Positions 10,592 to 27,496 of a stretch of DNA of 64,000 nt are shown here, piece after piece. Below the pieces are notes generated by a model, which saw nothing but the letters and a program-made list of their open reading frames with translations, was not told the DNA's origin and made no database searches. How positions within the stretch are numbered: position 1 is the stretch's first letter; each line of letters opens with the position of its first letter. Made by a program: the position numbers and the translations under genes. This DNA is from Lamellibrachia satsuma (Eukaryota; Annelida; Polychaeta; Sabellida; Siboglinidae): contig BSQZ01000028.1 in the NCBI GenBank assembly GCA_033239005.1, forward strand, positions 330,001 through 394,000, in the 5' to 3' direction.

Positions 10592-11500
10592 CTAGACACC
10601 CAACAGGAAACTGGCGCCGATCGAGACGAGGACTGCTAGCACGGCGAGACCGACTCTGTGAGCGCTGCTGTTCATAGTTTCGCAGTAGTCACCGCTGAAT
10701 CCATTAACGCACCTAGGCCCAAAAGGAATGTATATTATATGAAGCCCATAACATGACATCGTCGGCAAGACTCGCTGTTTTTTATTTTCCCGCGTTTCTA
10801 CAAACTCGCCGATTTCTATGTAAAAGTAATGTACGTTTATTATAATATTATATTCAGTTGAAAGGTAAAATAATTCTGTCTAACTAAAAGTTGCTGTAGA
10901 CGGGAATCGAACACGCGCTGTCCGCGTGGAAGACGCACAATTTATTGCTGAGCCATTACGTTTCACCCGATTAGGTTATTGTTTGGGTGTATATTCATGT
11001 CTGTCTTAACATACAAGTGATGCAACCCAGCCTTGAGAAAACGGCGAGTTTGTAGAAACGCGCAAGTACGAGAAAACGGCGAGTCTTGCCGGCTATGTTA
11101 TGATATGGGCTTCATAATATTGTGCAATTCTGGTACTCTTGTGAAAGGAATAACAGTGACATTTTAGTAAATGTTTCACATCTGCACAACACTAAAAACG
11201 TAGCATTGATGTTATTTCTTTGGGACAGGATTTGCCAAATGATCTCATGGCAAAGTGAACGCGTAAATACATTAAAAATAATACGAAAATGTCTCCAAGG
11301 ACAACACATACAATGTTAGTCTTCCAAAAATATTACTTCGAATAAGACTTCTTGTGATGGTGCGTGGGTCTACATTATTAATTGCAACACAGGTATTGTT
11401 ACTTACACACATCGAGCCCCGTTGTAACTGGAATCACAAGTCCCGCCGTTCTGACACTTGGAATCCATCGTGTACAGGCCACACGGATCATCCGTTGCAT
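10592..11500 (-). CDS. Gene 1 EGF-like domain and C-terminal GPI-type signal (exons 11407-11500 and 10592-10712)
   Basis: The six EGF cysteines are at aa 663, 672, 678, 687, 689 and 698, with spacing 8, 5, 8, 1 and 8 and the classic CQNGGTC and [10 protein letters not shown] motifs. The intron splits the domain after the fourth cysteine. After NSSA come about 20 hydrophobic residues ([20 protein letters not shown]) and then the stop at 10594-10592, with no cytoplasmic tail. Family knowledge makes this a GPI-attachment signal with omega site in NSSA; a tail-less transmembrane helix is the alternative. The intron holds the inverted-repeat element at 10725-11125. Confidence 0.85.

Positions 11501-27496: not shown

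Follow-up and report, generated by a model that had tools for sequence, protein, structure and literature searches.

The window analysed here, a stretch of 64,000 nucleotides (positions 330,001 to 394,000 of contig BSQZ01000028.1), comes from the vestimentiferan tubeworm Lamellibrachia satsuma and carries on its minus strand a gene for a putative surface protein made of seven six-cysteine modules, a SEA domain, an EGF-like domain and a hydrophobic C-terminal tail. The gene starts exactly at 27496 and ends at a single stop at 10592. Exons were located by translation and splice sites, and assembling them, a check that the original prediction for this stretch had proposed, gave one open frame of 22 exons and 739 residues, with a GT start and an AG end in all 21 introns. 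The start and stop predicted originally were borne out, but not the 20 exons and 727 residues. Five related proteins were found (P0001 to P0005), three of which, the only ones with names, are also from L. satsuma (P0001, P0003 and P0005).

Every one of the seven modules was encoded by two exons, in phases 1-2 and then 2-1. The first exon of each pair opens in phase 1, with one or two residues preceding cysteine 1, and closes in phase 2 within the codon that follows cysteine 3; the second exon ends in phase 1. Exon 1 (27421..27496, on the minus strand like all exons below) contains the start codon and a signal-like peptide, judged by eye, and has a phase 1 donor; P0002 starts similarly. Module 1 (type a of the module tree described below) is split between exon 2 (23593..23707), with cysteines 1-3, and exon 3 (23075..23190), with cysteines 4-6. 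The first and second halves of the remaining modules are located in exons 4 (22339..22465) and 5 (21878..21990) for module 2 (type b), exons 6 (21547..21640) and 7 (21110..21222) for module 3 (type c), exons 8 (20166..20274) and 9 (19524..19639) for module 4 (type d), exons 10 (18919..19015) and 11 (18228..18346) for module 5 (type e), exons 12 (17834..17930) and 13 (16917..17032) for module 6 (also type e), and exons 14 (16581..16674) and 15 (15706..15821) for module 7 (type f). The spacing C-x6-C-x21..32-C-x8-C-x6/7-C-x17..19-C, without any extra cysteine, was observed in all seven modules of the joined frame, just as it had been described originally; C-x8-C was present in each, and the next spacing was x7 in five modules and x6 in two. 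The model has 48 cysteines, 42 in the modules and six in the EGF-like domain. Five helices were predicted per module, and the linkers between modules are only 4-5 residues long.

Intron 1 contains an element of the LINE (long interspersed nuclear element) type on the plus strand (23716..26148), antisense to the gene, with endonuclease and reverse transcriptase domains. Its frame stops at 26148 inside the reverse transcriptase match, and the frame downstream (26414..26845) had no Pfam match. Another reverse transcriptase fragment, matching RVT_1 with an E value of 1.3e-24, is located at 62284..63078, also on the plus strand.

Between the modules and the SEA domain, we identified two micro-exons of 18 nucleotides, both in phase 1-1: exon 16 (15174..15191), encoding VKRYKT, and exon 17 (14728..14745), encoding VERPST. 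Both are in frame, and skipping them gives exactly the 727-residue frame of the original prediction. The same two micro-exons are skipped in the NCBI model P0001, and the same 12 residues are absent from P0003 as annotated, whereas P0002 and P0004 have exactly 12 more residues at this site (ILKKAREKSRPITG and IVNRARQKSRSSSG, respectively, versus IVKRYKTVERPSTG in the window). The source contigs of P0002 and P0004 are 3,465 and 3,331 bases long, with little room for introns; we infer from contigs so nearly filled by the frame that both are transcripts. Enumeration showed that 36 nucleotides can be taken without a stop from the 1,699-nucleotide intron in 19 ways, either as a single exon or as a pair of exons each divisible by three in length. 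Among these, the micro-exon pair ranked first against P0002 and P0004 (score 26); the next option (score 16) reuses the first micro-exon, and only the pair had good signals at all four splice sites. These comparisons support that a 12-residue linker is encoded by two micro-exons, which the corrected gene model supplies and the public annotation does not contain. The micro-exons may be skipped in some transcripts, and our guess is that the linker, which is rich in basic residues, could serve as a hinge or a cleavage site.

The SEA domain, the EGF-like domain and the hydrophobic C-terminus, all claimed originally, were all present in the joined frame. The SEA domain is encoded by exons 18 (13897..14006, first part), 19 (13353..13411, middle) and 20 (12021..12202, last part) and was predicted to have the SEA alpha/beta fold of the MUC16 type. 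Its Pfam score was 23.5 bits, with a cut-off of 26.4; P0002 scored 24.9 bits, though PF01390 is precomputed for this protein. The canonical SEA cleavage motif is GSVVV. The window gene and the three SEA-bearing relatives differ from MUC16-type SEA domains in reading KSSVGV at this position, which was placed by eye, and self-cleavage is therefore unlikely. The EGF-like domain starts in exon 21 (11407..11500) and has six cysteines in EGF spacing (residues 764, 773, 779, 788, 790 and 799 of P0001); it scored 20.3 bits versus a Pfam cut-off of 21.5, and that of P0005 scored 26.8, above the cut-off. Exon 22 (10592..10712) encodes the end of this domain, the residues NSS, the tail and the stop codon. 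The tail, judged from its hydropathy by eye and with no predictor, is hydrophobic, preceded by small residues and followed by no cytoplasmic part, and the protein is probably anchored by glycosylphosphatidylinositol (GPI).

The best match of the protein was the hypothetical protein LSAT2_014570 (P0001), with four substitutions over 727 aligned residues. It represents the same gene, annotated without the micro-exons and with extra 5' sequence at 36486-36409 and 34827-34687. These N-terminal pieces appear doubtful because the signal-like start is downstream of them. Such doubtful-looking exons could suggest that the whole frame is a gene-prediction artefact or a pseudogene, an explanation that we find scarcely credible given that the 22 exons have GT/AG ends and join in a single open frame, that the cysteines are conserved and that relatives span the full length. 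The frame is beyond chance because it matches an independently annotated protein and four further relatives. Among the L. satsuma relatives, LSAT2_014571 (P0003) begins with a module that is cut short, continues with nine regular ones and ends in SEA, EGF and tail. LSAT2_009122 (P0005) has modules, EGF and tail like the window gene but no SEA domain, and 13 N-glycosylation motifs versus three in the window protein.

To place the module in a family, we compared 42 modules with Pfam. They were picked by a pattern demanding six cysteines at roughly the module spacing, which in part predetermines the invariance of their cysteines. Omitted from the set were the first modules of P0003 and P0004, both cut short, and two of P0005 that are irregular. 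The original prediction had regarded a strong match to a well-described domain as evidence against it, and no Pfam family scored above its cut-off on any module tested. At E values up to 10, CPG4 (PF15481) was the commonest match, found for 12 of the 42 modules, followed by neuritin (PF15056) for four; 11 other families matched one module each, and window modules 3, 5 and 6 had no Pfam match. The best CPG4 match reached 22.9 bits (E 1.3e-4; cut-off 32.7 bits), and the CPG4 matches, found in module types c and d, kept register with the profile; in one of them, module residues 2-66 aligned to positions 2-63 of its 94. The best neuritin match to a module had an E value of 0.0098, none of the seven window modules matched this family, and P0005 as a whole reached 22.8 bits (cut-off 27 bits) with no single stretch passing. 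Neither family matched any of 26 cysteine-preserving shuffles, one for each of the 26 modules in alignment A3, or of 63 others, made nine apiece from seven modules that match CPG4. These results suggest that the module family is a probable distant homologue of CPG4, not a member of it, and is perhaps related to neuritin. The extracellular domain set assumed by the original interpretation was recovered, but its suggested likeness to DUF19 or DUF1397 was not: DUF19 (PF01579) was listed for none of the 42 modules when HMMER was run with its filters on and an E limit of 10, and DUF1397 (PF07165) also for none, with one of 26 shuffles matched by chance. The module profile also matched 29 PDB sequences, at E values no better than 0.24, most of them viral fusion glycoproteins aligned along a single stretch of 20 residues; these matches were judged to be chance.

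Taken together, we propose, tentatively and with a little less than even confidence, that the protein is a rod, probably GPI-anchored, in which helical modules resembling CPG4 and neuritin stand on a SEA-EGF stalk and act in multivalent binding. A host gene of the tubeworm would encode a secreted, probably GPI-anchored surface glycoprotein, in which seven modules with joints of 4-5 residues may form a stiff rod. The SEA-EGF stalk would hold this rod away from the membrane, and the rod could bind a secreted or surface partner multivalently at the external epithelium or matrix of the worm; function, ligand and tissue are what we infer for the protein.

Several observations weigh against this proposal. 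The CPG4 link rests on the relatives, as only one of the seven window modules matches (module 4, E 0.042, 14.8 bits), and in that module RET_CRD (E 0.0091) outscores CPG4. All CPG4 and neuritin matches fall under their Pfam cut-offs, and the 42 modules are related to each other, so that the matches are not independent. Whole-protein scans of the window model, with E values allowed up to 10, and of P0002-P0004, with E values allowed up to 1, did not list CPG4, which appeared for P0005 only (E 0.0011). The comparison of neuritin with the module profile was only marginally better than shuffles, 57 of 1000 and 26 of 200 of which scored at least as well. Structure comparison gave no solved structure whose fold clearly matches that of the module. 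The rod shape is a guess because the full-length structure model was poor overall, with a mean predicted local distance difference test (pLDDT) score of 57.6. In addition, the tail of P0004 ends in RFTHM, which is untypical of a GPI signal.

The prominence of CPG4 among the Pfam matches also fits a different role, in which the protein is chiefly a structural component of the chitinous tube or epithelial matrix, like the CPG4 proteoglycan, and binds no specific signal. CPG-4 is the core protein of a Caenorhabditis elegans chondroitin proteoglycan (PMC11632948), and EGF-domain proteins are reported to be expanded in vestimentiferans and, in Paraescarpia, to be incorporated into the tube matrix (PMC8476170), though nothing links the window gene to those proteins. 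We consider this role rather unlikely, since the GPI-type tail predicts a membrane protein and no chitin-binding domain was among the Pfam matches of the window protein. SG dipeptides occur twice, in module 5 and again in the EGF domain, and so offer no obvious chondroitin site.

The N-terminal domain of repulsive guidance molecules (RGM) binds bone morphogenetic proteins (BMP), and the modules could likewise form a co-receptor array for ligands of the transforming growth factor-beta (TGF-beta)/BMP type. RGM_N (PF06535) has a matching core spacing and was present in the fold lists, but its sequence signal was no better than shuffles, and we regard a co-receptor array of this kind as very unlikely.

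Returning to the proposed rod of CPG4/neuritin-like modules, we examined how its module number has changed. A tree of the 42 modules, built from 74 columns, had good support for 16 of its 39 inner branches and separated module types, labelled a to f. The order is a-b-c-d-e-f-c-d-e-f in P0002, and P0003 and P0004 have the same order from b onward with the first module cut short, so that three relatives have 10 modules, or are best read as having 10. The window gene has seven, in the order a-b-c-d-e-e-f, and its two e modules group together weakly (84/42). The simplest reading of these orders is that a block of four modules was duplicated and that the window gene then lost three modules by unequal exchange between two e modules. 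Each module corresponds to a phase 1-1 exon pair, so that gain or loss of a module leaves the frame intact.

Such turnover could indicate a changing recognition protein at a host-microbe surface, in which module number and sequence vary for the binding of symbionts or pathogens. All named relatives are from L. satsuma, the paralogues differ in module number, and LSAT2_014571, which has no exact copy in the window, shares a 102.6 kb contig with LSAT2_014570; the tubeworm depends on symbionts (PMC8476170). This explanation is nevertheless unlikely, as only four of 727 residues differ from P0001. The narrow taxonomic range may also reflect search sensitivity. Protein searches depend on shared short words: the full-length alignment search gave only P0001, P0002 and P0003 among the best 7,997 candidates by shared words, and the three-module search, which covered 695 candidates, gave no match with an E value of 1 or lower. 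None of the pattern matches was confirmed in one scan of bacterial and archaeal genomes (39 matches) or in one viral scan (27 matches), and neither the protein nor the module was named in the open-access titles and abstract openings among the matches listed. We also consider it quite unlikely that these genes form a family of rod-like, GPI-anchored receptors that is restricted to tubeworms, consists of neuritin/CPG4-like modules in tandem with exon-pair turnover, and recognises symbionts or tube and matrix ligands.

The window also contains repeats outside the gene. A tandem array at 1-3533 consists of 95 copies of a 37-base unit, and long open frames run through it even though the unit length is not divisible by 3. 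A satellite at 37470-38841 has 18 copies of a 76-base unit with 94% matches. A 48/72-base minisatellite at 47909-49459, in which the 48-base unit occurs about 32 times, is open in several frames on both strands.

The proposed rod can be compared with known systems. Unlike CPG4, it combines its modules in an array with SEA and EGF domains and a GPI-type tail. Neuritin (NRN1) is GPI-anchored and resembles the module in its six cysteines and its core C-x8-C-x7-C, but its spacing of 9-24-8-7-27 differs in the first and last intervals (9 and 27 versus 6 and 17-19), and it is a single domain. RGM_N is helical like the module and has the same core, with a spacing of 4-22-8-7-21. A previously orphan-looking tubeworm module thereby gains a testable weak link to the helical six-cysteine domains of CPG4 and neuritin, and a small gene family is named whose role at the surface of a symbiont-dependent animal could be tested. 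If the receptor-family interpretation were true, the tubeworm genes would provide an array form of the domain and would hint at a single superfamily that unites neuritin with CPG4 and perhaps also with the RGM and DUF19 domains. Should this superfamily link hold, vertebrate neuritin, nematode CPG4 and the tubeworm arrays could be studied as one fold.
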